Positions 2,715 through 22,923 of a stretch of 35,963 nucleotides of DNA are shown here, one piece after another (positions within the stretch are counted from its first letter, which is position 1; the number at the start of each line of letters is the position of its first letter). The notes beneath the pieces are model-generated. The model had not been told where the DNA came from, did no database searches, and saw only the letters and a list, made by a program, of their open reading frames with translations. The stretch is taken from positions 1-35,963 of the forward strand of contig NZ_LFME01000042.1 of assembly GCF_001043115.1 (NCBI RefSeq), given 5' to 3'. Made by a program: the position numbers and the translations under genes. Origin of the DNA: Xanthomonas sp. NCPPB 1128. GTDB taxonomy: Bacteria > Pseudomonadota > Gammaproteobacteria > Xanthomonadales > Xanthomonadaceae.

Positions 2715-2816
2715 CGTGCACCTTGGGCGCGGCGGGGCGCGCCGGCGAAGAAAAATGGGACAGGTGGCATCATCGCAGCCCGCGCGCGGCTTGTCGTGCC
2801 TGCGCGCATCGGCGCC

Positions 2817-4052
2817 TCAGACACTGCGCGTGGCCACCGCCGGCGGCACCGCGGCCGCGCGGCGCGCGGGCGCCAGGATCGCGAGCTGGCCGAGCAGCAA
2901 GAGCGCCGCGGCGACGGTCGGCAGGTAGCCCAGCGGCAGACGTGGCAGATCGTAGCGCTGCAACAGCGCTTGATTGAGCAGCAATGCCAGCACCATGCCC
3001 GCGGCGCTGCCGGCGCTTACGATCAGCAGGTTTTCGGTCTGGAAATGGCGCAGGACGTCGCGACGGGTCGCGCCGATGGCGCGGCGGATGCCGATCTGGC
3101 GCGTGCGTTGCTGCACCCAGAAACTGGCCAGCCCGCCGATGCCCAGGGCGGTCACGAACAACAGTGCCGTGGTCGCCGCGAGCAACAGCCCGACCATGGT
3201 GGCATCGCGCTGGAAGTAGCGCTGCCGGACCTGGGAAAAGCTGCGGCGCCCTTCGGCTGGAATCAGCCGCGGCGGACCCGCCTTCGCCAACGCGCGCGCC
3301 GCGGCGTCCAGGATCCGTTCGCGGTCCTGCGGAGCGCTGCGCAACAGGTACTGCGCCTGGTTACTCGCGGGAAGCCGCGGAGAGAGCGCGACGAAGCGAT
3401 CGACCGCTGCGCTGCGCAGCGTCGTGCGCAGCAGATCGTCGACGACGCCGACGACGATGCTGCCCTGGCCCTCGCCATACAGCGTTTTGCCGACCGCAGG
3501 TTGACCTGGCCATAGCTGCCGCGCCAGCGTGCGGGTGACGATCACGGCGCTTGGCGTGGCGGTGGAATATTCGTCGGCACGGAAGTCGCGGCCGGCGATC
3601 AACTGCGCGCCTATGGCCTGCACGAAACCTTGCGAGCCGGAGTAATACGTGGCCTGGATGCACCCTGTATTGTCCATCGAATGCTGCGCCATCGCGCGGT
3701 CCAGCGTCTGCCGGTCGGGGCAGCCGCCATAGTCGTTGGCGCCGCCGGACAGCGGCATGCTCAAGCCGATCGCGGCCGCCGCCGTGACGCCGGAGATGCC
3801 GCGCAACGCCAGCAGGTCGGATTGTTGCTGGGCCAGCGCATTGCTGTCGCTCTGGACGCCGCGGACCGAGATCAGCGAGAGTTCTTCCTCGGGCAGGCCG
3901 CTGGAGACCCGCAAACGTTCGATGCGCCCGCCGATCAGGAACACGGCGTTGGCGACGAAGGCGCAGGTCAGCGCGACCTGCAGCGCCAGCAGCGCGGCCG
4001 TGAGGCGGTGATGCTGCAGGCTGGAGAGGATGGGGCGGATCGGCAGATTCAT
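2817..4052 (-). CDS. FtsX/MacB-type ABC permease, class B (P11)
   Basis: This is a 411-aa inner-membrane permease without an ATPase domain. It has the MacB/FtsX layout: one N-terminal membrane helix (about 17-40), a large periplasmic MacB_PCD-like domain (about 45-285), then three membrane helices. The cytoplasmic coupling motif QIGIRRAIGATRRDVL lies between the second and third helices. It ends PPAVATRSV, the class B signature, and begins with the class B motif PIRPILSSL. The start ATG at 4052 overlaps the stop of P10 by four bases (ATGA), which supports this start over longer in-frame options and suggests that P10 and P11 are made as a pair. The periplasmic domain contains two cysteines (GGCPD and NTGCIQ) that most class B paralogues lack. 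The substrate cannot be read from the sequence. Confidence 0.9.
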   Translation of the reverse strand: MNLPIRPILSSLQHHRLTAALLALQVALTCAFVANAVFLIGGRIERLRVSSGLPEEELSLISVRGVQSDSNALAQQQSDLLALRGISGVTAAAAIGLSMPLSGGANDYGGCPDRQTLDRAMAQHSMDNTGCIQATYYSGSQGFVQAIGAQLIAGRDFRADEYSTATPSAVIVTRTLARQLWPGQPAVGKTLYGEGQGSIVVGVVDDLLRTTLRSAAVDRFVALSPRLPASNQAQYLLRSAPQDRERILDAAARALAKAGPPRLIPAEGRRSFSQVRQRYFQRDATMVGLLLAATTALLFVTALGIGGLASFWVQQRTRQIGIRRAIGATRRDVLRHFQTENLLIVSAGSAAGMVLALLLNQALLQRYDLPRLPLGYLPTVAAALLLLGQLAILAPARRAAAVPPAVATRSV

Positions 4053-5380
4053 GTCAGATCCTTGATCTGCAGGGCGGGGTCGATCCGGCTGGCCCGCCAG
4101 GCCGGGAGCAGGCCCGCCAGGAGCGCGGCGATCACCGCCAGCACTACGGTGGCAAGCAGCATCTGCAGGTCCATCCGCGCCAGCCTGGCGTAGTCGTCCG
4201 GGCGCTGGCGCACGCTCCACAGACCCAGCTCGGCGATCGCGACGCCCACGACACCACCGAGCAGCCCGATCAGCGCGGCTTCGCTACCGAACTGCAGAAA
4301 CACGTGGCCGCGACGGGCACCGAGCGCGCGCCGTACGCCGATCTCGCTGCCGCGACGCAGGAATTTCGCCAACAACAAGGCGATGACATTGACCAGGCAG
4401 ATCCACAGGAAGCCCAGTGCCAGCAGCGTCTGCAGGCGCACGTCGTCGGGCACCATCCGCAGGTGGCGCAGCCAGTCCATCAACGCATACAGCCGCGCAC
4501 GCTCCGGCGGGCGCTGGAAGCGTCCGCTGGCGTGCTGTGTCGCGGCATAGTCGTAGAGCAGGCGCTGGTAGTCGGCGACCTGCTGCGGCGTGTCCAAGCG
4601 CACCCAGAACTGCAGCCAACTGGTCGAAGGATCCTTGAAGCGCGCCGCGTCGTCGCCGTTGAAGCTGTTCCAGCTACTGATGTTGCTGTTGACGTCCAGT
4701 GCCAGTTCCATCGCGGTCGACAGCGGCAGGAAGAAGTCGTCCTGCTGGCCGAAGCCGCCCTTGCTGCCCGGATCGGCATAGAACAGCGGTTGCGGATTCC
4801 ATTGGCCGGTCACGCCGATCACCTCGAAGCCGATGCGCTTTTCCCCGAGCGCCACCCGCTGGCCGACCGGATCGCGCCCACCGAACAGCGTGTCGGCCAG
4901 GGTGCGGCTCAGCACGATGACGCGGGCATGGTTCTGGTCGTCAGCTGCGCTCCAGCCGCGTCCGCGCTGCAACGGGATGCCGAACAGGGTAAAGAACCCG
5001 GCGCTGGCGTAGCGGCCGCTCAGGTCGAGTGGCGCCTGGGACCCGCGTGGTGGCCACAGCAACGCTTGTCCGCCGGCCATCGCCGCCTGCGGCGTGGTGG
5101 GGGCGGCCCGCAGCAGCGCCATGGCGTCGGGCCAAGTGAGGTTGTCCGCCGGATCGCCCCACTCCTGGTTTTCTGGGTAGCTGGCCGGCAACGGGTCCAG
5201 ATGCGGGGTGTAGAGCACACCGCTCTTGCCCGGCAGCGGATCGCGCGACATCACATGCAGCACCGTCAGCATGGTCATGCTCGCGCCGATGCCCAGGCCG
5301 ATCGCCAGCACCATCAGCGCGGTGGCGATCGGCGTGCGCCGCAGACTGCGCCAGGCCAGCGGCAGATAATAGTTCAGCAT
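4049..5380 (-). CDS. FtsX/MacB-type ABC permease, class A (P10)
   Basis: This 443-aa permease belongs to class A (N-terminus MLNYYLPLAWRSLRR; C-terminus ALQIKDLT). It has one N-terminal membrane helix (about 20-42), a long periplasmic domain (about 45-315) and three C-terminal helices, with the coupling motif SEIGVRRALGARR after the second. It probably dimerises with P11, whose start codon overlaps its stop, and relies on the single ATPase encoded at 17146-17862. It is the only class A member lacking the periplasmic cysteine pair: the aligned stretch reads SSWNSFNGDD...PSTSWLQFW. It is the longest and one of the more divergent class A copies. Confidence 0.9.
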   Translation of the reverse strand: MLNYYLPLAWRSLRRTPIATALMVLAIGLGIGASMTMLTVLHVMSRDPLPGKSGVLYTPHLDPLPASYPENQEWGDPADNLTWPDAMALLRAAPTTPQAAMAGGQALLWPPRGSQAPLDLSGRYASAGFFTLFGIPLQRGRGWSAADDQNHARVIVLSRTLADTLFGGRDPVGQRVALGEKRIGFEVIGVTGQWNPQPLFYADPGSKGGFGQQDDFFLPLSTAMELALDVNSNISSWNSFNGDDAARFKDPSTSWLQFWVRLDTPQQVADYQRLLYDYAATQHASGRFQRPPERARLYALMDWLRHLRMVPDDVRLQTLLALGFLWICLVNVIALLLAKFLRRGSEIGVRRALGARRGHVFLQFGSEAALIGLLGGVVGVAIAELGLWSVRQRPDDYARLARMDLQMLLATVVLAVIAALLAGLLPAWRASRIDPALQIKDLT

Positions 5381-5416
5381 CCTGCATCTCCCCGCGTGAG
5401 TGGTGGCCGCATCAGG

Positions 5417-6637
5417 TCAGACACTGCGCGTGGCCACCGCCGGCGGCACTGCGGCGGCGCGACGCGCGGGCGGCAGCACCGCGAGCTGGCCGAGCAGCCA
5501 CAGCACCACCGCGCCGACCGGCAGGTACCACAGCGGCAGCCGCGGCAGCTCGTAGGCGCTCATCAGGTACAGGTTGGCAGCGTAGGCCAGCAGCATGCCG
5601 AGCACGATGCCGGTGCTGGCCAGCAGGAAGTTCTCCAGCTGGAAATGCCGCAGGATCTGCGTGCAGGTGGCGCCGAGCGCGCGGCGGATGCCGATCTGCT
5701 TGGTGCGTTGCTGCACCCAGAAACTGGTCAGGCCGACGATGCCCAGGGCGGTGACCAGCAGCAGCGCCACGCTCACGCCGACCAGCAGCCAGGCCATCGC
5801 CTGGTCGTCGCGGTAATAGGCCGCGCGCGCCTGCTGCAAGGTCTTGGCGCCGTTCACCATGCGCCGCGGACCGTGTTGCGACAGCGTCGCCTTGGCTTGC
5901 CGCAATACCGCCTCGCGTTGCGCCGGGTCGCTTACGCGCAGCAGGTAGGTGCCGTGATCGTAGGGAACGTTCACCGGGAACAGCATCGTGTCTTCGTAGT
6001 GGCCGGTGCTCCCGCCTTCGCGGGGTTGCACCAGGCGCTGCACCACGCCGACGATGCGGTGTTCGCCATAGACGTAGATGGTGCGGCCCACCGCGTTCTG
6101 GCCGGGGAACAGGCGTTGCGCCAGCGACTGGCTGACGATGACCGAGGGCGGGATGCGCTTGGTGACCGGATCGCGCAACTGCGCGTAGTCGATGAACTCG
6201 TCGTCCGCGAAGCGGCGCCCCGCGACCAGGTGCAACCCCAGGGTGTCGAGCAGCCGTGCGTCGCCGAAGTACTGCACGGCATGCAGGGTGCTGCGTTCCT
6301 GGTCCGGGCTGAGCGACACGCCGCTGTAGCCGAGCGAATCGCCGAACAGCGCCTGGTTGATGATGCTGGCGTCGCGCACACCGGGGATGCGTCGCAGTGC
6401 GTCCAGGTCGGCGCGGGTCTGCGCGGCGCCGTTACCGTCGCTGACCACACTGCGGCTGCGCAGTTGTACCAGTTCCTGCTCGGCGACGCCGCTGGGCCGG
6501 TGCATGCGCTCGAGCCGCTGATCGATCAGGAACAGCGCGTTGCAGACCACGGCGCAACTGAAGGCGATCTCCAGCACGATCAGGCCGGCGGCGACGCGGT
6601 GCTTGCGCAGACTGGAGAGAATGGGATGGAGGGACAC
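5417..6637 (-). CDS. FtsX/MacB-type ABC permease, class B (P9)
   Basis: This class B permease has N-terminal sequence SLHPILSSLRKHR, coupling motif QIGIRRALGATCTQIL and C-terminus PPAVATRSV. The chosen start is GTG at 6637, giving 406 aa, the length of its paralogues. It is preceded by AGGAACTTCCGCC, the same leader found in front of the ATPase ATG at 17862. An in-frame ATG at 6679 would add 14 residues (MTRRARPFPPGTSA) and overlap the P8 stop by four bases, as in the P10/P11 and P3/P4 pairs, but it has no Shine-Dalgarno sequence. Either start may be used. Topology is one N-terminal helix, a periplasmic domain and three C-terminal helices. It likely pairs with P8. Confidence 0.88.
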   Translation of the reverse strand: MSLHPILSSLRKHRVAAGLIVLEIAFSCAVVCNALFLIDQRLERMHRPSGVAEQELVQLRSRSVVSDGNGAAQTRADLDALRRIPGVRDASIINQALFGDSLGYSGVSLSPDQERSTLHAVQYFGDARLLDTLGLHLVAGRRFADDEFIDYAQLRDPVTKRIPPSVIVSQSLAQRLFPGQNAVGRTIYVYGEHRIVGVVQRLVQPREGGSTGHYEDTMLFPVNVPYDHGTYLLRVSDPAQREAVLRQAKATLSQHGPRRMVNGAKTLQQARAAYYRDDQAMAWLLVGVSVALLLVTALGIVGLTSFWVQQRTKQIGIRRALGATCTQILRHFQLENFLLASTGIVLGMLLAYAANLYLMSAYELPRLPLWYLPVGAVVLWLLGQLAVLPPARRAAAVPPAVATRSV

Positions 6638-6675
6638 GGCGGAAGTTCCTGGCGGAAAGGGGCGCGCGCGGCGCG

Positions 6676-7977
6676 TCATTGCGACTTGAGTTGCAGGGCG
6701 GTGGGCACGCGCATCGCCTGCCAGGCCGGCAGCAGGCCGGCGAGCAGCGCACTGCCCAGACTCAGCGCCAGCGCGAGCAGCAGCATGCGGCCATCCAGGT
6801 GCGCCAGCGCGGCGTAGGTGGACGGCTGCTGCCGCACCAGCCAGGTGCCGATCCACGCCAGCAGCAGGCCGCCGCTGCCACCGACCACGCCGATCGCCAC
6901 CACTTCGACCAGGTGTTGGGCGAAGATCGACCGGCGCGAGGCGCCCAGTGCGCGGCGCACGCCGATCTCGCCGCTGTGGCGCAGGAACTTGGCCAGCATC
7001 AGCCCGGCGGTGTTGAGCAGGCAGATGCCCAGGAACGCCAGCGCCAGCCACACCTGCAGGCGCACGTCGGAGGGGACAGCATGGTTGCGGTCCAGCCAGG
7101 TCATCACATCGCTGAGGCGGATGTCCGGCGGATGGCTGAAGCGGCCGGCGTCGCGCTGCTGCTGCGCATAGGCCTGCAGCGCGTCCAGGTAGGCGGCGCG
7201 CTTGCCGGGGCTTCCCAGCTCCACCCAGTACTGGATCCAGGCACAGGACGCGCTCTCGCTGGTCTTGTCGCCACCGCTGTCGCCCCAGCAGGACATCGAG
7301 CCGCTGACGTCCAGGCCCAGGTCGCGTGCGGTGGAGAACGGCACGAACACGTCCTCGCTGTCGCCGTACTCGTTGTTGGTCAGGTCGTAGAAGCGCGGGT
7401 TCATGTCCCAGACGTCGATCACCCCGACCACGCGCAGGACTGCATCGCCGAGTTGGAGTTGGCGGCCGACACTGTCCACGTCGCCGAACAACTGGGTATT
7501 GAGCCGCCGCGAAATCACCGCGACACGCGCGCGCCGCGCATCGTCGTCCGCGGTCCAGGCGTGGCCATAGCGCATCGGCACTGCGAACATCGGGAAGAAG
7601 TCGGCGCTGGTGTAGCGCGCTTCGGCGCCGAACGGCGTCAGTTGCGGCTGCGCCGGCACCACCGTCACGCCGCCGGCCGACATCATCGCCTGGCGGTCGC
7701 CGCGCCTGTCGCGCAGCAGCGTCTCGGCATCGCGGCGGGTCAGTTGCTGCGGGTCGGTATCGTTCGGATCGTAGCGATCGTCAGGCTGGACGTTGAGCTC
7801 CACGTTGAACAGCTGCGCGCTCTTGCCGGGAATCGGATCGGCCGCCAGCACATGGAACACGGTCAGCGTGGTCATCGACGCACCGATACCGACGGCGATC
7901 GCCAGCACCATCAGGGCCGTGAGCAACCGATTGCGGCGGAAGCTGTGCAGCGCCAGTTTGCAGTAGTAGCCGAACAT
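6676..7977 (-). CDS. FtsX/MacB-type ABC permease, class A (P8)
   Basis: This is a 433-aa class A permease (N-terminus MFGYYCKLALHSFRRN, C-terminus TALQLKSQ). It has one N-terminal helix, a periplasmic domain of about 270 residues and three C-terminal helices, with GEIGVRRALGASRRSIF as the coupling segment. The periplasmic domain carries the class A cysteine pair (SMSCWGDSGG and SASCAWIQYW), probably a disulfide. It lies 44 bp after the P7 stop and directly before P9, its likely partner. It is closest to P5 at its start and in the cysteine-pair region, which suggests the P5-P6 and P8-P9 cassettes share a recent ancestor. Confidence 0.9.
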   Translation of the reverse strand: MFGYYCKLALHSFRRNRLLTALMVLAIAVGIGASMTTLTVFHVLAADPIPGKSAQLFNVELNVQPDDRYDPNDTDPQQLTRRDAETLLRDRRGDRQAMMSAGGVTVVPAQPQLTPFGAEARYTSADFFPMFAVPMRYGHAWTADDDARRARVAVISRRLNTQLFGDVDSVGRQLQLGDAVLRVVGVIDVWDMNPRFYDLTNNEYGDSEDVFVPFSTARDLGLDVSGSMSCWGDSGGDKTSESASCAWIQYWVELGSPGKRAAYLDALQAYAQQQRDAGRFSHPPDIRLSDVMTWLDRNHAVPSDVRLQVWLALAFLGICLLNTAGLMLAKFLRHSGEIGVRRALGASRRSIFAQHLVEVVAIGVVGGSGGLLLAWIGTWLVRQQPSTYAALAHLDGRMLLLALALSLGSALLAGLLPAWQAMRVPTALQLKSQ

Positions 7978-8021
7978 CGTGGGTCCTGGACGGGGCGGTG
8001 GCGGGCGAGGGAAGGAGGGGG

Positions 8022-9251
8022 TCAGAGACTGCGGGTGGCCACGGCCGGCGGCACCGCTGCGGCGCGCCGCGCCGGCGCGAGCACCGCGCACTGGCCGAGC
8101 AGCCACAGCGTCGCCGCGCCGATCGGCAGGTAGGACAGCGGCAGCCGCGGCAATTCGTAGCGGCCCATCAGCCACTGGTTGATCGCGTACGCCAGCAGCA
8201 TGCCCAGCGCGATGCCGGCGCTGGTCAGCAGGAAATTCTCGGCCTGGAAGTAGCGCAGGATCTGCCTGCGCGTGGCGCCGAGCGCGCGGCGGATGCCGAT
8301 CTGCCGGGTGCGCTGCTGGACCCAGAAACTGGCCAGGCCGACGATGCCCAGCGCGGTGACCACCAGCAACGCCACGCACACCGCGCCGAGCAACCACACC
8401 ATGGTGCGGTCGCCCTGGAAGTAGGTGTCGCGGATCTCGCTGTAGGTCTGCTGCTCGAGCACCAGGCGGCTGCTGTCGACCTTCATCAAGGCCGCCGTCG
8501 CCGCGTTCAGCACTTCCTGGCGCCGCGCCGGATCGGTGACCCGCAGCACATACATCCCGTCGGTATAGGGCATGCGCAGCGGAATCAGCAGTGCGTAGGG
8601 CGCCTGCGCCGGGCCGACCACGTCCGGGTTGGGACGGGCCAGGGCGTCGACGATGCCGACCACCTGCGCCGGCACGGTGCCGCGGTAGACGGTCCTGCCC
8701 AGCGCGTTCTGTCCGGGGAACATCGTCTCCGCCGCCGCCCGGTTGAGGATGACCGCGCCGCCGGCGTTGCGCAGACGCGCGTCGTTGCGCAGGGTGTCCA
8801 GGTCCAGGTACTCGTCGGCGTGGAAATCGCGCCCGGCGACCAGGCGCAGGCCCAGGGTGCGCAGCGTGGCGTCCTCGGCCTTGTACTGCGCGGCATTGAG
8901 CGTGGGCCATTCCTGGTCCGGGGTCAGATTCAGGCCGACGTTCCAGGCCGCGTCGCCGAACGGGATCTGGTTGATGACGGTGGCGCTGCGCACGCCGGGC
9001 AGCGCGCGCAGCGCGGACAGGTCTTCGCGGGTGCGTGCCGCCGCGTCGACCTGCCGGCCGATGCCGCCGAGGGCGATCGTCACCAGTTCCGCCTCGGCGA
9101 CGCCGCTGGCGCTGCGCAGGGCCGCGATGCGGTTGCCGATCAGGAACAGCGCGTTGCACACGATCGCGCAGGCCAGGGCGATCTCCAGCACGATCAGCGT
9201 CGCCGCGGTGCGGTGCCGGGACAGCGTCGAGAGCATCGGGCCAAGTGCCAT
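8022..9251 (-). CDS. FtsX/MacB-type ABC permease, class B, unpaired duplicate (P7)
   Basis: This is a 409-aa class B permease (MALGPMLSTLSRHR...; coupling motif QIGIRRALGATRRQIL; C-terminus PPAVATRSL). It directly follows P6, another class B gene, so it breaks the A-B alternation and has no class A gene directly upstream of its own. It looks like a tandem duplicate of P6. The C-terminal membrane part and the stretch just before it are almost identical (8457-8549 matches 9856-9948 base for base), while the first two thirds of the periplasmic domain differ. The start ATG at 9251 gives the family N-terminus; the longer reading frame to 9332 has no family support. A terminator hairpin (9386-9409) lies upstream, so its expression may differ from that of P6. 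Confidence 0.9.
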   Translation of the reverse strand: MALGPMLSTLSRHRTAATLIVLEIALACAIVCNALFLIGNRIAALRSASGVAEAELVTIALGGIGRQVDAAARTREDLSALRALPGVRSATVINQIPFGDAAWNVGLNLTPDQEWPTLNAAQYKAEDATLRTLGLRLVAGRDFHADEYLDLDTLRNDARLRNAGGAVILNRAAAETMFPGQNALGRTVYRGTVPAQVVGIVDALARPNPDVVGPAQAPYALLIPLRMPYTDGMYVLRVTDPARRQEVLNAATAALMKVDSSRLVLEQQTYSEIRDTYFQGDRTMVWLLGAVCVALLVVTALGIVGLASFWVQQRTRQIGIRRALGATRRQILRYFQAENFLLTSAGIALGMLLAYAINQWLMGRYELPRLPLSYLPIGAATLWLLGQCAVLAPARRAAAVPPAVATRSL

Positions 9252-9385
9252 GGCGACGTCGCTCAGGCGCCGCGCCGTGCTGGCGCCGCCTGGCCGGCCG
9301 GGCGCGGCCGCGCCTGCGCATGTGCGTGGCACTGGAGACCGGACGGCGGCAGAGAGTTGTGGTCGCTGGGCATGGCACGCTCGAT
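9252..9385. other. Spacer between the duplicated class B permeases
   Basis: Apart from the terminator at its right end, this is the longest gene-free stretch between permease genes. No sigma-54 consensus and no convincing -35/-10 pair could be found on the minus strand. It may hold an undetected promoter for P7 and the genes after it, or P7 may depend on read-through. Confidence 0.4.
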
Positions 9386-9409
9386 AAAAAAGGCCGGTCG
9401 GAGCCGGCC
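9386..9409 (-). terminator. Rho-independent terminator inside the permease array
   Basis: On the minus strand the sequence is GGCCGG, loop CTCCGA, CCGGCC, then six Ts. This perfect six-pair GC stem with a U-tract begins 11 bases after the P6 stop codon. It should stop or reduce transcription coming from the adaptor side before P7, P8-P11 and the two-component genes. Partial read-through would produce a graded operon. Confidence 0.8.
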
Positions 9410-9420
9410 AAGGGGATGGG

Positions 9421-10647
9421 TCAGGTGCTGCGGGTGGCGACGGCCGGCGGCACGTCGGCGGCGCGCCGCGCCGGCGCGAACACCGCCAACTGGCCGAGCA
9501 GCCACAGCGCCACCGCGCCGATCGGCAGGTAGGACAGCGGCAGTCGCGGCAACTCGTACTTGCCCATCAGCCATTGGTTGATGGCGTAGGCCAGCAGCAT
9601 GCCGAGCACGATGCCGGTGCTGGCCAGCAGGAAGTTCTCGGTCTGGAAGTAGCGCAGGATCTGCCCGCGGGTGGCGCCGAGCGCGCGGCGGATGCCGATC
9701 TGCTTGGTGCGCTGCTGGACCCAGAAGCTGGCCAGGCCGACGATGCCCAGCGCGGTGACCACCAGCAACGCCACGCACACCGCGCCGAGCAGCCACACCA
9801 TCGCGCGGTCGCCCTGGAAGTAGGCGTCGCGGATCTCGCTGTAGGTCTGCTGCTTGAGCACCAGGCGGCTGCTGTCGACCTTCATCAAGGCCGCCGTCGC
9901 CGCGTTCAGCACTTCCTGGCGCCGCGCCGGATCGGTGACCCGCAGCACGTACAGCCCGTCGGGGTACGTCAGGCGCAGCGGCAGCAGCATCGCGTACTCG
10001 ATCTCGGCCAGGCCGCTGGCGGCGGTCGGGCGCGCCAGGGTCTCGACGATGCCGACCACGCGGGCTGCCACCGGCCCGGTGTACACGGTCTTGCCCAGCG
10101 CGTTCTGCCCCGGGAACATCTTTTCCGCGGTGGCCCGGTTGAGGATGATGGCGGTGCCCTTTTCCTTGATGCTGCGGTCCGTCTGTGCCGCATCCATGTC
10201 CATGTACTCGTCGGGCGCGAAATCGCGTCCGGCCACCAACTGCAGGCCCAGGGTCTTCAGCGTGCCCTCTTCGGCCATGTACTGCGCCGCGTTGAGGGTG
10301 GGCCGCTCCTGGTCCGGGGTCAGCGACAGGCTGGTGTTCCAGGAGTAGTGCACGAACGGCACCTGGTTGAGCAGCGTGGCGCTGCGCACGCCGGGCAGCG
10401 CACGCAACGCGGCCAGGTCCTCGCGGGTGCGCGCGGCGGCGTTGACCTGCTGGCCGATGCCGCCCAGCGAGATCGTCACCAGTTCCGACTCGGCGATGCC
10501 GCTGGGCCGGTGCAGGGTCTCGATGCGGTTGCCGATCAGGAACAGCGCGTTGCAGACGATCGCGCAGGCCAGGGCGATCTCCAGCACGATCAGCGCGGCG
10601 GCGGTCTTGTGCCGGCGCAGGGTGGACAGGATGGGGCGGATATCCAT
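9421..10647 (-). CDS. FtsX/MacB-type ABC permease, class B (P6)
   Basis: This is a 408-aa class B permease (MDIRPILSTLRRHK...; coupling motif QIGIRRALGATRGQIL; C-terminus PPAVATRST). It has one N-terminal helix (about 17-38), a periplasmic domain to about residue 285 and three C-terminal helices. It lies 46 bp after P5, its probable class A partner, and is followed by a terminator hairpin. It is a near-duplicate of P7: both share YVLRVTDPARRQEVLN and the following residues, but their periplasmic domains differ strongly at about 45-215 (for example VPFVHYSWNTSLSL here against IPFGDAAWNVGLNL). Confidence 0.91.
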   Translation of the reverse strand: MDIRPILSTLRRHKTAAALIVLEIALACAIVCNALFLIGNRIETLHRPSGIAESELVTISLGGIGQQVNAAARTREDLAALRALPGVRSATLLNQVPFVHYSWNTSLSLTPDQERPTLNAAQYMAEEGTLKTLGLQLVAGRDFAPDEYMDMDAAQTDRSIKEKGTAIILNRATAEKMFPGQNALGKTVYTGPVAARVVGIVETLARPTAASGLAEIEYAMLLPLRLTYPDGLYVLRVTDPARRQEVLNAATAALMKVDSSRLVLKQQTYSEIRDAYFQGDRAMVWLLGAVCVALLVVTALGIVGLASFWVQQRTKQIGIRRALGATRGQILRYFQTENFLLASTGIVLGMLLAYAINQWLMGKYELPRLPLSYLPIGAVALWLLGQLAVFAPARRAADVPPAVATRST

Positions 10648-10693
10648 GGCGATGACCTTGTGAGAATGCGTGGAAGGCGCAGGGCGCGCAGGA

Positions 10694-11989: not shown

Positions 11990-12003
11990 GGGAGCTCCGT
12001 GGA

Positions 12004-13245
12004 TCAGGCGCTGCGGGTGGCAGTGGCAGGGGGGACGGCGGCGGCGCGCAGGGCCGGGCCGAGCACGGCGAACTGGCCGAGCAGCCACACCGCGACGATG
12101 CCGGTCAGGACGGTGGGCGAGGACAGGCGCTCCAGTTCGAAACGCTGCATCAGCCACTGGTTCATGACGTAGGCGAGCACCGCGCCGAGCAGCGCGCCGG
12201 CGCCGACGATGAGCAGATTCTCGGCCTGGAAGTAGCGCAGGATGTCGCCGCGGGTGGCGCCGAGCGCGCGGCGGATGCCGATCTGCCGGGTGCGCTGCTG
12301 CACCCAGAAGCTGGCCAGCCCGCCGATGCCCAGCGCGGTCACGGTGAGCAGGATCAGGATGATCGCCAGCAGCATCCGCGCCACCGCGCTGTCGCTCTTG
12401 AAGTAATCGCTCCGCAGTTCCTGCATGGTGGCCACGCGCTGCTGCACGTAGGTCGGGTTGGCGCGCTGCATCGCCGCGGCCGCGCGCGGCAGCGCCTGCG
12501 CCAGTTGCCCCGGCTTGCTGCGGATCACGTAACCGCCGCCCCAGCCTTCGCTGCCGATGCGGATCTCGGCCAGCAGGGCATCGGCATCGTCGTCGTGACC
12601 GGTGATCTCGCCGCGTACCGGCGCCATCACCCCGACAATGTCCAGGCGCACCGGCTGGTTGAAAGTGCTGGTGTAGAGCGTGCGCCCCAGCGGCGAAGCG
12701 CCGGGAAACAGTTTGGCGGCCAGCGAGGGCGTGATCAGCGCCGGCAGGCGCCGCTCGATCTCCGGGGGCGCACCGAACAGGTCCGAGGCACCGGTCAGCT
12801 CCGCGTCGCGCAGGTCGCGGCCGGCGACGATGCGGATGCCCAAGGTGCGGTTCAGGCCCTGGCTGCCGAGGAACAGGCGGGCACGGGCAACCGGTTGCGT
12901 GGCCTGCGGCTGCAGGAACAGTTGCGCCTGCGTCGGGCCCCACAGCGGCGGCGTGCCGAAGGCCGCCGCTTCCACGCCGGGCACCGCCTGCAGGATGTCC
13001 AGGCTGTGGCCGACGCTGCTGACACTGCCTGGTTCGCCGATCACGCTGATGCTCTGGATCAGGCCGATGTCCTGTTCCATCACCCCGGTCGGGGTCTGCA
13101 CGCGCTGGTAGGTGCGGGCGATGATGAACACCAGGTTGCACAGCACCGCCAGGGTCAGGGCGATCTGCAGCGCCATCAGCACCACCGCGGCGCGATGGCT
13201 GCCCAGCGCGGACAGGATGGGGCGCACGGGAGGCAGCGCGGTCAT
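12004..13245 (-). CDS. FtsX/MacB-type ABC permease, class B (P4)
   Basis: This 413-aa class B permease is the most divergent of its class. It starts MTALPPVRPILSALGSHR and ends VPPATATRSA; its first helix (ALTLAVLCNLVFIIART) lacks the usual FLIGNR end. The periplasmic domain has no cysteines. The coupling segment QIGIRRALGATRGDIL and the three C-terminal helices are well conserved. The start ATG overlaps the P3 stop (ATGA, 13242-13245), so P3 and P4 are probably translated together. The upstream extension of this reading frame to 13863 is antisense-like arginine-rich sequence and is not part of the gene. Confidence 0.9.
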   Translation of the reverse strand: MTALPPVRPILSALGSHRAAVVLMALQIALTLAVLCNLVFIIARTYQRVQTPTGVMEQDIGLIQSISVIGEPGSVSSVGHSLDILQAVPGVEAAAFGTPPLWGPTQAQLFLQPQATQPVARARLFLGSQGLNRTLGIRIVAGRDLRDAELTGASDLFGAPPEIERRLPALITPSLAAKLFPGASPLGRTLYTSTFNQPVRLDIVGVMAPVRGEITGHDDDADALLAEIRIGSEGWGGGYVIRSKPGQLAQALPRAAAAMQRANPTYVQQRVATMQELRSDYFKSDSAVARMLLAIILILLTVTALGIGGLASFWVQQRTRQIGIRRALGATRGDILRYFQAENLLIVGAGALLGAVLAYVMNQWLMQRFELERLSSPTVLTGIVAVWLLGQFAVLGPALRAAAVPPATATRSA

Positions 13246-14552
13246 AGCGATTTCACCTGCAGGGCGGGGGCGATGCGCGAGGCGCGCCAGGCCGGCCACA
13301 GGCCGGCGGCCAGTGCCGAGAGCGTGGCCACGGCCAGGGCGATGCCCAGGATCGCGGGATCGGCATGCGCCTGTTGCGCGTAGGCCACCGGTTGCTGGCG
13401 CACCAGCCACAGGCCGATCCAGGTCAGCGGGATGCCGAGCAGGCCGCCCAGGCAGCCGATCAGCGCCGATTCGGCCAGGCATTGCGCGAACACCGCGCGG
13501 CGGCTGGCACCAAGCGCGCGGCGCACGCCGATCTCGCCGGCCTTGCGCATGAACTTGGCGACCAGCAGACCGACCGCATTGAGCAGGCACACCAGCAGCA
13601 CGCCGAAGGCGATCCAGGTCTGCATGCGCACCGTGGCCGGCACCACCCGCTTGTAGTCCAGCCAGTCGACCAGGCTGCGCAGGCGAGTGTTGGGGGCGCG
13701 TTCGAAGCGGCCGAGCTGGCGCTGCTGCGCGCTGTAGGCGTCCAGCGCCGCGCGGTAACGACGCACCTGTTCCGGCGTGTCCAGCCGCACCCAGTACTGC
13801 ACCCAGGTGCATTGCGCGGCCTTGGGGTCGTGCAGGCCGGCTTCGCCATCCTTGCCCCAGCACTGCATCGGCCCGTAGCCGTAGTCCTGCGGCAGGTCCA
13901 GCCAGGTCTCGAACGGGATGTACAACGCTTCCGGCGGCGTGTACGCGCCGGAGTTGAGATCGTAGAAGCGCGGCTGCGCATCCCAGGCGTCGATCACCCC
14001 GATCACGCGGAACGGGCGGGTGGCGATGGTCAGGGTCTTGCCGACGCTGTCCGCGCCGCCGAACAGCGCGTCGTTGAGTTGGCGGCTCAGCACCACCACC
14101 GGCGCGCGCTGGCTGTCGTCGCGCTGGCTCCAGCCGCTGCCGTAGAGGAAGCGCATGCCGAACATGCCGAACAGGTCGGCGGTGGCGGCGCGGGTGGTGA
14201 GCATGCGCAGGGGGCTGTTGGGCACGGTCTGGCGCACCGGCAACCAGTTCGCGCTGGTCATGGTCTGCGCTGGCGCCGCCTTTGCCCGATACAGCGCGGT
14301 CGCGTCCTGCCAGGTCAGCTCGTCCGGCGGCTCGGCGTCGGCGCTGGGCAGGTTGCGCGGACGCGGATCCAGCTGCGGATGGAACAGCGTGGCGCTATGT
14401 CCGGGCAGCGGATCGCCGGACAGCGTGTGCAGCACCGTCAACATGGTCATCGACGCGCCGATGCCCAGCGCCACGGCCAGCACCATCAGCGCGGTGAGGA
14501 TGCGGTTGCGGCCGAAGCTGCGCAGCGCCAGGCGGAAGTAGTAAGCGAACAT
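13242..14552 (-). CDS. FtsX/MacB-type ABC permease, class A (P3)
   Basis: This is a 436-aa class A permease (MFAYYFRLALRSFGRN...; coupling motif GEIGVRRALGASRRAVF; C-terminus APALQVKSL). It has one N-terminal helix, a periplasmic domain carrying the cysteine pair (PMQCWGKDG and AAQCTWVQYW) and three C-terminal helices. It starts 12 bp after P2 and overlaps P4 by four bases, the tightest type of spacing in the array, so a P3-P4 heterodimer served by the shared ATPase is likely. Confidence 0.91.
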   Translation of the reverse strand: MFAYYFRLALRSFGRNRILTALMVLAVALGIGASMTMLTVLHTLSGDPLPGHSATLFHPQLDPRPRNLPSADAEPPDELTWQDATALYRAKAAPAQTMTSANWLPVRQTVPNSPLRMLTTRAATADLFGMFGMRFLYGSGWSQRDDSQRAPVVVLSRQLNDALFGGADSVGKTLTIATRPFRVIGVIDAWDAQPRFYDLNSGAYTPPEALYIPFETWLDLPQDYGYGPMQCWGKDGEAGLHDPKAAQCTWVQYWVRLDTPEQVRRYRAALDAYSAQQRQLGRFERAPNTRLRSLVDWLDYKRVVPATVRMQTWIAFGVLLVCLLNAVGLLVAKFMRKAGEIGVRRALGASRRAVFAQCLAESALIGCLGGLLGIPLTWIGLWLVRQQPVAYAQQAHADPAILGIALAVATLSALAAGLWPAWRASRIAPALQVKSL

Positions 14553-14564
14553 GCGGGTTCCGGG

Positions 14565-15779
14565 TCAGGCGCTGCGGGTGGCGATGGCGGGAGCGACGGC
14601 GGCGGCGCGCAGGGCCGGACCGAGCACGGCGAGCTGGCCCAGCGCGCACAGCAGCAGCGCGCCGACCGGCAGGTAGCTGGCCGGCAGCCGTTCCAGTTCG
14701 AACACCTGCATCAGCAGCACGTTGCCGCCGTAGGCCAGCAACATGCCCAGCGCCACGCCGGCGCCGACCAGCAGCAGGTTCTCGGTCTGGAAATAACGCA
14801 GGATGTCGCGGCGGGTGGCGCCGAGCGCGCGGCGGATGCCGATCTGCTTGGTGCGCTGCTGTACCCAGAAACTTGCCAGGCCGACGATGCCCAGCGCGGT
14901 CACCAGCAGCATCGCGACGATGATCGCGACCAGCAGCCCGGTCATCGCGCGGTCGCTCTGGAAATACGTCTGGCGCAGTTCGTCCAGGGGCTTGCTGTTG
15001 GCGTTGTCCAGCACCGCCTCGGGCACCGCCCGTGCCACCGCGGCGCGCGCCTGCGCCAACACCCGCGGCAGGTCGCGCGGATCGGCGCGCAGCACATAGG
15101 TGCCGGACTGCGCAGCCTCGCGTACCGGAATCACCACCGACCAGTCGCTGCCGATCGTGCCGTCCTCGCTGCGGCCAGGATCGGGGCGCGCCAGGTGCTC
15201 CAGCGTGCCGATCACGCGGAAGTGACCGCCGGACCAGAATTCCTTGCCCAGCGGATCCTGGCCCGGCCACAGGTGCGCGGCCAGTGCCCGCGTGATCCAC
15301 ACGCCTGCCGCGGTCGGGATGCCGTTGTCCAGCGGCTGGTAGTCCGCGTCGCCGAACGTGCGGCCGCTGTCCGGTTTCAGCGCCAGTGCCGCGACCGCGC
15401 CCGGGCTGACCATGTAGAAGTGCGGTACGCCGCCGACCTGGGTGCAGTCCTGGTCCAGGCACAGCCCGTTGTTGAACACCGGCGGCGCGAACGGAACGGT
15501 GTTGATGGCGCCGGCCGCACGCACGCCGGGCGTGCGGCGCACCGCATCCAGCGCGCGGGCGTTGACGTCGGTTGCATTGCAGCCATCGCAGCCGGACAGC
15601 GACACCAGCCCCAGCGCGGCCTCGTCGATGCCGCTGCGCAGGTGCACCAGTTCCAGGCGGTTGCCGATCAGGAAGAAGGCGTTGCACAGCACCGCGCAGG
15701 CCAGCGCCACTTCCAGCGTGATCAGCGCGGCGGCAATGCGATGGCGCGACAGCGCGCTCAGGATGGGAGTGATCTGCAT
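14565..15779 (-). CDS. FtsX/MacB-type ABC permease, class B, cysteine-rich (P2)
   Basis: This is a 404-aa class B permease (MQITPILSALSRHR...; coupling motif QIGIRRALGATRRDIL; C-terminus VAPAIATRSA). Besides the usual topology, its periplasmic domain has four cysteines: a CxxC at 64-67 (SGCDGCNATD) and Cys107/Cys112 (GLCLDQDC). None of the other class B proteins has this set. They could form disulfides or bind a metal; nothing in the sequence decides. It follows P1 by 15 bp and is the likely partner of P1. Confidence 0.9.
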   Translation of the reverse strand: MQITPILSALSRHRIAAALITLEVALACAVLCNAFFLIGNRLELVHLRSGIDEAALGLVSLSGCDGCNATDVNARALDAVRRTPGVRAAGAINTVPFAPPVFNNGLCLDQDCTQVGGVPHFYMVSPGAVAALALKPDSGRTFGDADYQPLDNGIPTAAGVWITRALAAHLWPGQDPLGKEFWSGGHFRVIGTLEHLARPDPGRSEDGTIGSDWSVVIPVREAAQSGTYVLRADPRDLPRVLAQARAAVARAVPEAVLDNANSKPLDELRQTYFQSDRAMTGLLVAIIVAMLLVTALGIVGLASFWVQQRTKQIGIRRALGATRRDILRYFQTENLLLVGAGVALGMLLAYGGNVLLMQVFELERLPASYLPVGALLLCALGQLAVLGPALRAAAVAPAIATRSA

Positions 15780-15794
15780 CGTCGCGTGCCCCGG

Positions 15795-17117
15795 TTACAG
15801 ACTCTTGAGTTGCATGGCCGGCGCGATACCGCTGGCGCGCAGGGCGGGGAACAGGCCGGCAGCGAGGCTGCAGGCGATCGCCAGGGCGAAGGTGCCGGCG
15901 AACGTCGTCGGATCCAGATGCGCCAGGTCGGCGTAGGCGGTGGGCTGCTGGCGCACGCTCCACAACCCCAGCAGGGTCAGCAGCCAGCCGCCGGCGCCGC
16001 CGATCAGGCCGATCACGCCAGCCTCGGTCAGGCACTGCGCGAAGATCGCGCGGCGCGAGGCGCCGAGCGCGCGGCGCACGCCGATCTCGCCGCCGCGGCG
16101 CAGGAACTTGGCCAGCAGCAGGCCGATGCTGTTGAACAGGCACAGGCCCAGGAACGCCAGCGCCAGCCAGCTCTGCAGGCGCACGTCGCCCGGTACCACG
16201 CGGTTGTGGTCCAGCCATTGCGGCAACGACAGCAGGCGCGCGGTGTCGGCGCGGCCGATGCGCCCGGCGGCGTGCTGCTGCGCGGCGTAGTCGGCGAGCA
16301 GCCGGCGGTAGTCGGCGACCTTCGTCGGCGTGTCCAGCTGCACCCACAACTGCAGCCACACGCACGGGGCGCTGCGCAGGTCCAGGTTGGCCTCGGGCTT
16401 GCTGAAGCAGGTCCACGGCTGGATATGGCCGTCGTTGACCTCCAGGCTGCTGGACAGCGGCATGAACACGTCCTGCGGCCGTCCATAGAAACTGGCGGTA
16501 TCGCCATGGGCGAAGCTGCCGCCGGCCAGTGTGTAGAACAGCGGCGACGGCCGCCACGGCGCCAGCACGCCGACGATGCGTACCGCGGTGCCGCGCACCA
16601 GCAGGCTGCGGCCGACGCTGTTGCGGCCGCCGAACAGCTTGGCGTTGAGATCGGCCGAGATCACCGCCACCCGTGCCCGGTCCTGGTCGTCGCGCGCGCG
16701 CCAGCCGCTGCCGTAGGCGAACGGCACCTGGAACATCGGGAAGAAGTCGGCCTGGGTCATCAGCAACTGGGTCATGAAGGGCGGGGTGGCGCTGTCCGCC
16801 GCATGCACCTTGATTTCGCTCTCGGCGACCATGGCCTGGCGATCGGCGCGCCCGCTCTTCCACAGGTCCATGGCCGAGGGGTAGTCGAGCTTGTCGTACG
16901 GCTTCTGGTTGGCGCCGTTGCTGGGGCGCGGATCGAGCTGCGCGAAGAAGATCTGCTGGCTGCGTCCGGGCAAGGGATCGCCGGACAGCAGCCGCATCAC
17001 CGTCAGCGTGGTCATCGCCGCGCCGATGCCCACGGCGATGGACAGCACCATCAGCGCGGTGAGCACCGGGCTGCGGCGCAGGCTGCGCCACGCTTGCTGG
17101 AAGTAGTAGCCGAGCAT
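15795..17117 (-). CDS. FtsX/MacB-type ABC permease, class A (P1)
   Basis: This is a 440-aa class A permease and the first permease of the array. Its N-terminus is MLGYYFQQAWRSLRRS, the coupling segment GEIGVRRALGASRRAIF and the C-terminus APAMQLKSL. The N-terminal helix is at about 20-42, the periplasmic domain at about 45-310, and three helices follow. The class A cysteine pair is Cys237 (PWTCFSK) and Cys252 (APCVWLQLW). A GGAG ribosome-binding site lies just upstream of the ATG. It starts 28 bp after the ATPase stop, placing ATPase, P1 and P2 together as the basic transporter. Confidence 0.92.
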   Translation of the reverse strand: MLGYYFQQAWRSLRRSPVLTALMVLSIAVGIGAAMTTLTVMRLLSGDPLPGRSQQIFFAQLDPRPSNGANQKPYDKLDYPSAMDLWKSGRADRQAMVAESEIKVHAADSATPPFMTQLLMTQADFFPMFQVPFAYGSGWRARDDQDRARVAVISADLNAKLFGGRNSVGRSLLVRGTAVRIVGVLAPWRPSPLFYTLAGGSFAHGDTASFYGRPQDVFMPLSSSLEVNDGHIQPWTCFSKPEANLDLRSAPCVWLQLWVQLDTPTKVADYRRLLADYAAQQHAAGRIGRADTARLLSLPQWLDHNRVVPGDVRLQSWLALAFLGLCLFNSIGLLLAKFLRRGGEIGVRRALGASRRAIFAQCLTEAGVIGLIGGAGGWLLTLLGLWSVRQQPTAYADLAHLDPTTFAGTFALAIACSLAAGLFPALRASGIAPAMQLKSL

Positions 17118-17145
17118 GTCGGTCTCCGCGCCGTCGCCGTTCGGG

Positions 17146-17862
17146 TCAGCGCGCCGCTGCGGCGTCGTTGCCGCCGTGCCCCAGCACCGGTTCGCGCTGC
17201 AGGTCGGTGGCCTGGCCGTCGACGATGTGCACGTTGCGCTGCGCGCGCGCGGCCAGTTCCGGGTCGTGGGTGACCATGACGATGGTCGAGCCCTGCGCGT
17301 TGATCTCCTCCAGCAGTTCCATTACCCCGCGCGCCATCTGCGAGTCGAGGTTGCCGGTCGGTTCGTCGGCCAGCAGCAGGCGCGGGCTGCCGGCCAGGGC
17401 GCGGGCGATCGCCGCACGCTGCTGCTGGCCGCCGGAGAGTTCGGACGGATAGTGCTTCATGCGCGAACCCAGCCCGACCCGGCTCAGCGCCTCTTCGATG
17501 CGCTGCTTGCGCTCGGCAGCGCCCATGCCGCGGTAGCGCAGCGGCACGTCGACATTGTCGAACAGGTTGAGATCGGGGATCAGGTTGAAGCCCTGGAAGA
17601 TGAAGCCGATCTTCTGGTTGCGCATGCGCGAGCGCGCATCGTCGTTGAGGTTGCTGACGTCCTGGCCATCGAGCAGGTACTGGCCGCTGGTGAAGGTCTC
17701 CAGCAAGCCGGCGATGTTGAGGAAGGTGGTCTTGCCCGAGCCCGACGGCCCGGTGACGGCGACGAACTCGCCCTCGCGGACATGCAGGTCCAGCGAGCGC
17801 AACGCATGCGTTTCGACCTGTTCGGTGCGGAAGACCTTGGAGACGGAGCGCATTTCGAGCAT
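17146..17862 (-). CDS. ABC transporter ATPase, MacB/LolD type
   Basis: This is a 238-aa stand-alone nucleotide-binding subunit and the only ATPase for the eleven permeases in this locus. The motifs are complete: Walker A GPSGSGKTT (38-46), Q-loop Gln90, signature LSGGQQQR (142-149), Walker B LLLADEP with catalytic Glu167, D-loop NLD and switch His199. The sequence type is that of MacB, LolD and YknY, which power mechanotransmitting (type VII) exporters rather than classic channel transporters. The start at ATG 17862 gives MLEMRSVSKVF and is preceded by AGGAACTTCCGCC; the reading frame continues upstream through repeat DNA to 18000, which is not coding. Whether it serves all permeases is inference from being the only one present. 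Confidence 0.95.
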   Translation of the reverse strand: MLEMRSVSKVFRTEQVETHALRSLDLHVREGEFVAVTGPSGSGKTTFLNIAGLLETFTSGQYLLDGQDVSNLNDDARSRMRNQKIGFIFQGFNLIPDLNLFDNVDVPLRYRGMGAAERKQRIEEALSRVGLGSRMKHYPSELSGGQQQRAAIARALAGSPRLLLADEPTGNLDSQMARGVMELLEEINAQGSTIVMVTHDPELAARAQRNVHIVDGQATDLQREPVLGHGGNDAAAAR

Positions 17863-17891
17863 GGCGGAAGTTCCTATGGTTGTGGAGCGGA

Positions 17892-18002
17892 GATTGGGGA
17901 TTCGTGATTGGGGATTGGTGGGGCGCGACGCGTCTGGATCAGGGGCAAGGACAGGAGAGCAGCATGGGGCTTCAACGAATCCCCAATCCCGAATCCCCAA
18001 TC
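17892..18002. repeat. Inverted repeat of GATTGGGGATTCG units between adaptor and ATPase genes
   Basis: The left arm 17892-17917 and right arm 17977-18002 are inverted copies (24 of 26 positions pair) around a 59-base loop. Each arm is two tandem units of the GATTGGGGATTCG type. The transcript between the adaptor stop (18010) and the ATPase start (17862) would form a long hairpin here. The same units recur at 1-16, 34861-34887 and 35044-35113. Confidence 0.8.
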
Positions 18003-18009
18003 CCGGCTC

Positions 18010-19278
18010 CTAATGCACCGTCACCTGCGGCGCGTCGCCGAACAGGTCGCTGCCGGAGACCACGACCCGGTCGCCCGGCTGCAGGCCCGAGCGCACTTCG
18101 ACCTCGCCCAGGCTGGTGACGCCCAGTTCGACCGGGCGGCGCACCGCCGAGTCGCCGTCCATGACGTAGGCGTAGCGGCCGCCGGACTGTTCGACGAACG
18201 GACCGCGCTCGAGCTTGAGCACGTTCTTGCGGGTATCCAGCAGCACCCGCGCGCTCATGCGCTGGCTCTGGCGCAGGCCCGGCGGCTGCTTGTCGGTGAA
18301 ACGGATGCGTGCGTTGACCTCGCCGTTGACCACTTCCGGCGACACCGCCGAGATCGCCCCGGCGAACGGTTCGCCGGCACCACTGGTCAACTGCGCCGGC
18401 ATGCCGATCGCCAGGTCGCGGGCGAAGCTTTCCGGCACCTTGATCTCCAGTTCGAACTTGGACAGGTCGACCACGCTCAGCACCGGCGCGTTGGCGGCGA
18501 CGTTGGTGTGCTGCGAGACCTGCACCTGGCCGACCTGGCCGTCGAACGGCGAACGCAGGGTCAGCAGGTCGACCTGGCGCTGCACCTCGGCTACCACCGC
18601 GCGCTGGCGCTCGGCGAGCAGGCGCTTGTTGCGCGCGTCCAGCGACGCGCCCTGCGCCTGCAGGCCCGAATCCTTCTGCGCGTGGCTCATCGCGATGTCG
18701 GCCTTCTTCAGCGTGTCCTGGGCCTTGGCCAGTTCCACCTGCGGCACCGCACCGCCCTCGAAGCCGCGCTGGTAGCGCTCCAGGTCGCGGCTGGCGGCCT
18801 GCCGCTCGATCTGCGCCTGGTCGACCAGCTTGCTGGCGTTGGCGCGGGCCAGAGTCGCGTCCAGGTCGGCACGGCCGGCCTCGGCTTCCAGGCCGGCCAG
18901 GGTGGCCTCTTCCTGGGCCAGCTTGCTGCGCAGTTCGGGGCTGTCGATCTCGGCCAGTTCCTGGCCCTGCTTGACCACGTCGCCGGCGACCACCTTCAGG
19001 GTCACGGTACCGCCGGAGATGGCGTACAGGGTGGGGCTGTTGGCGGCGATCAGGCGGCCGTCGGCGGAGATGTCGCGGACCAGGTCGCCGCGGGTCACCG
19101 TGGCGATGCGCACGCGCTGCGCGTCGAAGGAACGGCTGCCGGCGATCCAGCCGCGTGCGGCGAAGGCGATGCCCAGCAGCACCAGCGTGGCAATCAGCCC
19201 GGGCCACAGCCAGCGGCGCCAGGCCCGGGAGCGGGGGCGGGCGAGAACCTGGTCCTGGGCGGAGGTGTCACGGATCAT
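18010..19278 (-). CDS. Periplasmic adaptor (membrane fusion) protein, MacA/HlyD type
   Basis: This 422-aa adaptor should link the inner-membrane permeases to an outer-membrane channel. It has a cytoplasmic N-terminus, one membrane anchor (about 24-44, LWPGLIATLVLLGIAFA), a lipoyl/barrel-sandwich half (about 70-110, with GDVVKQGQELAEID), a long alpha-helical hairpin (about 110-215), the second lipoyl half (SPFDGQVGQVQV), and beta-barrel and membrane-proximal domains to the end (QPGDRVVVSGSDLF). No outer-membrane TolC-type gene is in the window, so that partner must be encoded elsewhere. It is the first gene of the locus, 35 bp from the sigma-54 promoter. The name macA fits the architecture but the substrate is unknown, so no symbol is given. 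Confidence 0.93.
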   Translation of the reverse strand: MIRDTSAQDQVLARPRSRAWRRWLWPGLIATLVLLGIAFAARGWIAGSRSFDAQRVRIATVTRGDLVRDISADGRLIAANSPTLYAISGGTVTLKVVAGDVVKQGQELAEIDSPELRSKLAQEEATLAGLEAEAGRADLDATLARANASKLVDQAQIERQAASRDLERYQRGFEGGAVPQVELAKAQDTLKKADIAMSHAQKDSGLQAQGASLDARNKRLLAERQRAVVAEVQRQVDLLTLRSPFDGQVGQVQVSQHTNVAANAPVLSVVDLSKFELEIKVPESFARDLAIGMPAQLTSGAGEPFAGAISAVSPEVVNGEVNARIRFTDKQPPGLRQSQRMSARVLLDTRKNVLKLERGPFVEQSGGRYAYVMDGDSAVRRPVELGVTSLGEVEVRSGLQPGDRVVVSGSDLFGDAPQVTVH

Positions 19279-19405: not shown

Positions 19406-19408
19406 TAG

Positions 19409-22915: not shown

Positions 22916-22923
22916 GATCGGCC

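Follow-up and report, generated by a model that had tools for sequence, protein, structure and literature searches.

The subject of this study is an operon on a stretch of DNA of 35,963 nucleotides from Xanthomonas sp. NCPPB 1128 (contig NZ_LFME01000042.1), referred to below as the window, within a genome of 4.95 Mb. The operon lies on the minus strand, in the order adaptor, ATPase, 11 FtsX/MacB permeases, sigma-54 response regulator, and histidine kinase. Its sole periplasmic adaptor is of the HlyD/MacA type (positions 18010 to 19278, 422 amino acids, HlyD_3 domain), and its sole ATPase is of the MacB/LolD type (17146 to 17862, 238 amino acids from the chosen ATG, ABC_tran domain). The permeases follow head to tail from 17117 down to 2817, with gaps of 12 to 46 nucleotides except for a 4-nucleotide overlap between A5 and B6 and a gap of 169 nucleotides between B3 and B4. 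They comprise cassette 1 (A1, 15795 to 17117; B1, 14565 to 15779), cassette 2 (A2, 13242 to 14552; B2, 12004 to 13227, GTG start), cassette 3 (A3, 10694 to 11989; B3, 9421 to 10647), an extra B without its own A (B4, 8022 to 9251), cassette 4 (A4, 6676 to 7977; B5, 5417 to 6637, GTG start), and cassette 5 (A5, 4049 to 5380; B6, 2817 to 4052). The window holds 11 matches to the FtsX domain (PF02687), all on the minus strand and all above the curated cutoff, and together with the gene coordinates these bear out the original prediction, made from the sequence letters, of one ATPase, one adaptor, and 11 permeases in the order A-B, A-B, A-B, B, A-B, A-B (5 class A and 6 class B). We consider it probable that the permeases work as A:B heterodimers, each a split form of an ADOP-type permease, that share the one ATPase and the one adaptor, probably with a different cargo for each head.

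The two permease classes are clearly distinct. Within the window, identity is 45 to 60% among class A proteins, 40 to 78% among class B proteins, and 17 to 23% between the classes. Relatives were collected as 18 genus loci and 80 named loci (L019 to L098) and scanned with profiles; the named loci correspond to the top 80 among 226 matches to A3 (the first being Xanthomonas sp. F10, 97%), and the set is biased to A3-like cassettes. They come from Xanthomonas, Stenotrophomonas, Pseudoxanthomonas, Luteimonas, Lysobacter, Thermomonas, Vulcaniibacterium, Dyella, Frateuria, Rhodanobacter, and metagenome-assembled genomes (MAGs) without a genus name. Before trees and counts were made, three identical loci (L019, L022, and L023) were removed, leaving 96 distinct loci with the window included. 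Permeases covering less than 75% of their profile were excluded from the counts, and the ATPase, adaptor, and regulator profiles were each built from the single window protein. In a tree of 442 permeases from these loci, 211 class A and 231 class B proteins are split by one long branch (length, 3.16; support, 0.95) with no mixing, which agrees with the expectation of two clades. The end motifs by which the classes had been told apart (YY..LA.RS against PILS.L..H at the N terminus and ALQLKS against PAVATRS at the C terminus) hold as a consensus and not letter for letter, since A5 ends in ALQIKDLT and B2 has PATATRS. The transmembrane and coupling parts are conserved and the periplasmic domains divergent, as had been proposed (56 to 71% versus 38 to 52% identity in class A and 55 to 88% versus 24 to 71% in class B). 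The coupling segments read E-IGVRRALGA in class A and QIGIRRALGAT in class B. The periplasmic domain of class A also carries a near-invariant pair of cysteines (residues 229 and 244 of A3), perhaps forming a disulfide, which is absent from A5 of the window.

Both classes match the model of the ADOP family (TIGR03434; 803 positions; cutoff, 622.3 bits). This family is named for having no neighboring ATPase ("orphan"), and large paralogous sets are typical of it. All five class A proteins of the window match positions 5 to 401 of the model (A1, 6 to 400; A2, 5 to 399; A3, 5 to 400; A4, 6 to 401; A5, 7 to 400), and all six class B proteins match positions 410 to 802 (B1, 411 to 801; B2, 412 to 802; B3, 411 to 802; B5 and B6, 410 to 801 each). 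The model was likewise matched by 56/56 class A and 59/59 class B relatives scanned, with positions read for the first member of each. Class A thus corresponds to the N-terminal half of ADOP and class B to its C-terminal half, in the same order; unlike in ADOP, the halves are separate genes here, in an operon with an ATPase, an adaptor, and a sigma-54 two-component system. The window permeases score 147 to 191 bits each, below the single-chain cutoff, and the A1-B1 stretch read across the stop codon reaches 333.5 bits. In contrast to the orphan definition, the ATPase gene lies directly upstream of the permeases. A fused ADOP in the same genome (L099, C8:121000-130000, positions 768 to 6811) scores 653.5 bits and sits in an operon of adaptor, ATPase, fused ADOP, and sigma-54 regulator, a divergent parallel of the window operon, and all four fused ADOP proteins that we examined have an ATPase match nearby.

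The original prediction had called the system a MacB-like exporter. This label applies in the wide sense, in that A1 and B1 score above the cutoffs for both MacB_PCD (PF12704) and FtsX and the other nine permeases above that for FtsX; judged by the model matches, however, the exporter is nearer to a split ADOP than to MacB. The MacB model (NF007826, 966 bits) describes a permease with a fused ATPase, whereas the ATPase here is a separate gene and the permeases score 31 to 55 bits where listed. With MacAB-TolC the operon shares MacB-type periplasmic and FtsX domains, a MacA-like adaptor (142.7 bits against the RND_mfp model TIGR01730; cutoff, 94.9), a related ATPase, and a matching predicted fold; it differs in its separate ATPase, its two different permease chains, and the number of permeases per operon, which reaches 13 in locus L011. 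Predicted A and B models (AlphaFold2 mean pLDDT of 89.8 for A3 and 93.5 for B3) match the structures of MacB, LolE, and 5xu1. LolCDE resembles the window system in having two different permeases and a separate ATPase, but it has one pair only and no adaptor, and the window permeases score 18.5 to 19.5 bits against the lolCE model (cutoff, 362; B1, A3, and B4 among the permeases scanned). The ATPase is closest to DarD of the darobactin exporter (its best NCBIfam match, 260.4 bits; cutoff, 375), and DarBCD likewise has a double permease and an adaptor. The score against DarC is 53.1 bits (cutoff, 450), and B1 scores 17.4 bits against DarB (cutoff, 700), so that the window proteins fall below the curated cutoffs; DarB is moreover one chain (777-position model), and we know of no permease array for DarBCD.

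Next, we looked at how gene content and copy number vary among the relatives. The 96 loci share a common plan, adaptor-ATPase-(AB)n-regulator, with n from 1 to at least 6. The adaptor is present once in 92 loci and absent from 4, and a full-length ATPase is found once in 91, not at all in 4, and twice in 1; 89 loci carry a full-length regulator, the last gene after the permeases in the relatives. Of the 12 exceptional loci, several begin or end inside the operon (e.g., L011, L040, L081, L096, and L097), genes are split in L044 and L064, and a second ATPase match is present in L042. In L064 (Xanthomonas phaseoli ATCC 49119), the ATPase, A, and regulator genes are each in pieces, through decay or sequencing errors. 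The heads, in contrast to this constant motor, are variable: the architecture is AB in 47 loci, ABB in 7, and (AB)2 to (AB)6 or an extra-B variant in 42, the fullest complete one being ABABABABBABAB (L011). An assembly artifact as the source of the array is ruled out by the five or six cassettes found at the same locus in six single-contig relatives. In total, the loci hold 211 A-B cassettes and 20 extra B genes; A never occurs alone. Sixteen of the 20 form one clade, found in Xanthomonas and Pseudoxanthomonas and always last before the regulator (e.g., L014_B3, L016_B3, and L035_B2); another, L097_B1, is preceded by a partial A match at the edge of its locus. B4 of the window lies outside this clade; it is a duplicate resembling B3, and L011 alone has a close orthologue of it.

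We also counted class A matches per genome, scoring the 14 best candidates in the family sample and the 6 best in the class-wide sample and including matches outside the main operon. In the genus sample, 19/20 genomes have class A matches, with one to six each. In the family sample, 107/119 genomes do: 88 have one, 19 have two to six, and 12 have none. In the class-wide sample, 7/274 genomes have matches at an E value of ≤1e-60; four of these lie outside the family, each with a single match in the order adaptor-ATPase-A-B, and a regulator adjoins in two. A single cassette is therefore the commonest state in the family and is probably the ancestral one; the large arrays would be derived. In Stenotrophomonas maltophilia EA1 (L078), an extra A-B pair lies upstream of the adaptor of a normal operon, and it is the nearest relative of an ATPase-less pair (L109) described below. 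As to spread on plasmids, the only matches among plasmid records were three distant ones from Pseudoalteromonas (39 to 40% identity).

To follow the inheritance of the cassettes, we compared the A and B trees. Across 156 cassettes in 41 multi-cassette operons, the tree distances of A and B were strongly correlated (r = 0.909), whereas shuffling partners within operons (500 shuffles) gave a mean r of 0.106 (standard deviation, 0.046; maximum, 0.286) and a one-step rotation gave 0.139; this comparison, like that of orthologues and paralogues below, uses related sequences, and the pairs are not independent. The nearest neighbors of A and B agreed in 155/156 cassettes. These mirrored trees match the branching order that had been foreseen and show that the cassette is a unit of inheritance. 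Furthermore, for 153/156 array cassettes, some cassette from a different genus was closer than any other in the same operon, with genus labels read off the record titles, X. massiliensis and X. chitinilytica each treated as a separate genus, and each unplaced MAG treated as its own. Cassette A2-B2 of the window, for instance, has its closest relative in cassette 4 of a Pseudoxanthomonas, and the nearest other-genus relative of A1-B1 is from X. massiliensis. Recent tandem duplication as the origin of the array is not supported for these 153 cassettes, and the repeated cassette duplication of the original prediction, if read as recent tandem amplification, has to be given up; by the tree distances, either the duplications are old or there has been transfer of cassettes between genera. 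The best candidate for a young duplicate is B4 (78% identity to B3), yet its tree distance from B3 of several species is 0.38 to 0.42. Since it is about equally far from all of these, it is perhaps not very recent either. A search of the 169-nucleotide gap between B3 and B4 for the remnant of a lost A gave short, weak matches only (best E value, 0.002, to B proteins), none of them convincing.

These results bear on whether A and B proteins of different cassettes might pair freely, which would give up to 30 heterodimers on the one motor, with a lone B adding further partners; the original prediction had spoken of exchangeable heterodimers. The transmembrane parts are alike across cassettes, as such mixing would call for, and the extra B follows a complete cassette. 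Moreover, an extra B without its own A appears to be an old and kept state, because 16/20 form one clade. Against this, the A-B alternation, the matched trees, and the fused form of ADOP all favor fixed pairs as the main state. We therefore regard free mixing as unlikely and do not favor freely exchangeable partners in general, and exchange is left open for the lone B proteins.

If the heads are instead fixed heterodimers on a shared motor, each with its own cargo, the question is whether the copies differ in function. We estimated dN/dS (omega) from orthologues in seven chosen close loci, dropping pairs beyond a tree distance of 0.3. In all 11 genes the medians were low, at 0.03 to 0.19 in the transmembrane parts and 0.12 to 0.28 in the periplasmic parts (for B4, from one comparison), and all 11 permeases are thus under purifying selection. 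We then compared periplasmic identity between paralogues and orthologues at matched transmembrane identity. At a transmembrane identity of 65 to 70%, periplasmic identity in class A was 42% in paralogues (30 pairs) versus 57% in orthologues (31 pairs), and in class B it was 30% (56 pairs) versus 41% (6 pairs). The deficit of the paralogues was seen at matched transmembrane identities below about 75% and came to 3 to 4 points at 75 to 80%. This excess divergence fits different cargo or different periplasmic partners, without proving either.

An alternative is that the cassettes share one job and one cargo, with the copies kept for the amount of exporter or by drift. That one promoter apparently drives the whole set would suit this explanation, as would the fact that most genomes of the family have a single class A match and some have none. 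Dosage, however, would favor near-identical copies, and only B3 and B4 approach that; the cassette slots are old and distinct, each copy is under purifying selection, and the periplasmic parts have diverged beyond the orthologue level. Taken together, these observations make dosage or redundancy a distinctly unlikely explanation of the array as a whole.

The operon ends with the sigma-54 (NtrC-type) response regulator (1377 to 2714, 445 amino acids; Pfam Response_reg, Sigma54_activat, and HTH_8) and a sensor histidine kinase (28 to 1380, 451 amino acids; PF02518 HATPase_c, E value of 2.7e-22), whose start codon overlaps the stop codon of the regulator. Ahead of the adaptor lies a sigma-54 promoter-like site (GG-N10-GC; 19313 to 19328, minus strand, 11/12 scored positions), preceded by TGTCCG/CGGACA repeats with five half sites (19365 to 19404). 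The original prediction had left the regulator, the kinase, and the promoter-like site unmentioned. A sigma-54-like site (at least 10 of 12 scored positions) was found ahead of the adaptor in 90/92 readable operons and at 3/317 starts inside arrays, compared with a background of 62/2000 random 400-base stretches; the scan covered stretches of 270 and 150 bases and the sigma-54 type only. The TGTCCG-CGGACA arrangement was present upstream in 62/92 operons. The simplest reading is that one sigma-54 promoter serves the whole set, and the repeats are likely the site of the response regulator. Directly adjoining these boxes is the end of an element resembling a miniature inverted-repeat transposable element (19405 to 19675), with 34-nucleotide terminal inverted repeats (94%) and nested inner repeats. 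Nine copies in the genome (this one included) span at least 255 bases at 80% identity or better, in addition to partial or weaker ones; parts of it also occur in L005/L019, L006, and L009, and L038 has a 68% match. Elsewhere in the window, an FAD monooxygenase (21695 to 22948) has Tet(X) as its best NCBIfam match (155 bits; cutoff, 750) and is probably an ordinary monooxygenase.

The kinase and regulator at the end of the operon would also suit a system that signals or does mechanical work, as in FtsEX or BceAB-type sensing, with the pairs sensing periplasmic ligands and acting on the sigma-54 kinase. FtsX proteins can transmit force without transport (compare PMC11627006). The presence of an adaptor in 92/96 loci, with an RND_mfp-type score in the window, speaks against this, and the MacB-like periplasmic domains fit a tripartite exporter. 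We regard signaling as the sole role of the pairs as highly unlikely, and we return to the shared-motor exporter.

Further evidence for sharing comes from A-B pairs outside the main operon. In the genus sample, 10 class A matches lie at a second locus, each with an adjoining B, and the nine genomes holding them also carry the main operon. In two of these loci (L106 and L107), the ATPase is intact and 77 to 78% identical to that of the window. In their orthologue L108 (6915 to 9981), ATPase residues 1 to 50 and 173 to 224 abut and residues 51 to 172 are missing, which leaves it without the Q-loop, signature, and Walker B motifs (motif positions as assigned by us), while its A and B genes are open, with an omega of 0.04 to 0.05. 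L110 has a partial ATPase-like stretch (26 to 33% identity). No related ATPase adjoins the other six pairs (L109 and L111 to L115), with a 30 to 32% match about 4 kb away in L109; the A and B genes of L113 and L115 have an omega of 0.11 to 0.15. Permease pairs that outlive their ATPase are what a shared motor predicts. Within the window's own genome, each of the 10 other FtsX matches shares its stretch with an ATPase match. Thirty ATPase matches have an E value of ≤1e-15, and the nearest one outside the window operon (54%) is that of the fused-ADOP operon. The expectation that these permeases have no additional dedicated ATPase is supported to the extent that the ATPases near the other FtsX genes sit with their own permeases.

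We propose the following mechanism for the operon as a modular member of the type VII ABC superfamily, to which MacB and LolCDE belong. Every cassette would encode one permease heterodimer from its A and B genes. The single adaptor and the single small ATPase, present twice in each complex, would be contested by the heterodimers of all cassettes, and one motor may in this way drive several alternative heads in turn. According to PMC5985334, the superfamily includes homodimers, heterodimers, and fused dimers, and its MacB-type permeases operate through mechanotransmission. If the heads behave like MacB, their paired stalks and periplasmic domains would open and close as ATP is bound and released. 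Cargo taken up in the periplasm or at the outer leaflet would thereby be pushed into the adaptor and on into a duct through the outer membrane whose gene lies elsewhere. Each head probably owes a cargo of its own to its divergent periplasmic domains, and the sigma-54 two-component system at the end of the operon would switch on the whole set from one promoter. Envelope-active peptides or lipids as cargo would fit the relatives.

Several points weigh against this proposal. The mirrored trees mark the cassette as the unit of inheritance and not A-B contact, because genetic linkage alone can explain paired inheritance; such contact is not proven by it. That the ATPase binds more than one pair is a proposal drawn from the genomic pattern. 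Some ATPase matches, led by that at C47:8167 (43%, 150 bits), lie outside FtsX loci and could serve as helpers. The excess periplasmic divergence is gone or inconsistent above 80% transmembrane identity, where there are two to four paralogue pairs per bin, and part of the multiplicity could be a matter of dosage. Finally, among the second-locus pairs, a sigma-54-like score of at least 10 was found at 1/10 A starts (background, 62/2000) and the enhancer arrangement at 0/10. Coregulation of these pairs by the main sigma-54 system is not supported; without the promoter and enhancer signals of the main operon, the pairs do not look coregulated with the motor.

The arrangement is nevertheless real and well conserved, and it presents known parts in an unusual multi-head form. 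Group II ECF and Mce systems are importers with unrelated permeases, and they differ in this from the window system, which falls in an exporter superfamily and has its heads arrayed in one operon. Shared motors are known from these importers, in which one ATP-driving module serves several alternative membrane partners (PMC7755397 for group II ECF and PMC9947336 for the MceG-dependent Mce importers). Among the papers listed by a literature search, most of which were seen short of full text, none was found to describe a shared motor for MacB/FtsX-type exporters or to deal with this operon; the full ADOP phrase turned up in one paper, a Dyadobacter species description (PMC11573002, available in part). 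More broadly, and tentatively, as a plausible rather than a probable view, these operons may represent a Gram-negative family of shared-motor exporters, in which plug-in A-B heads with their own cargo are gained, lost, and dispersed as cassettes of two genes and are all driven by the same ATPase and adaptor; the sigma-54 operon would form the hub, and the ATPase-less cassettes at other places in the chromosome its satellites. Such a family would be to export what group II ECF is to import. If the proposed mechanism is true, one ATPase would be a single control point over many efflux routes, and the "orphan" permeases of ADOP would gain a likely mode of energizing. Because Xanthomonas and its relatives naturally range from one cassette to six or more, it becomes testable which periplasmic differences would set the cargo.

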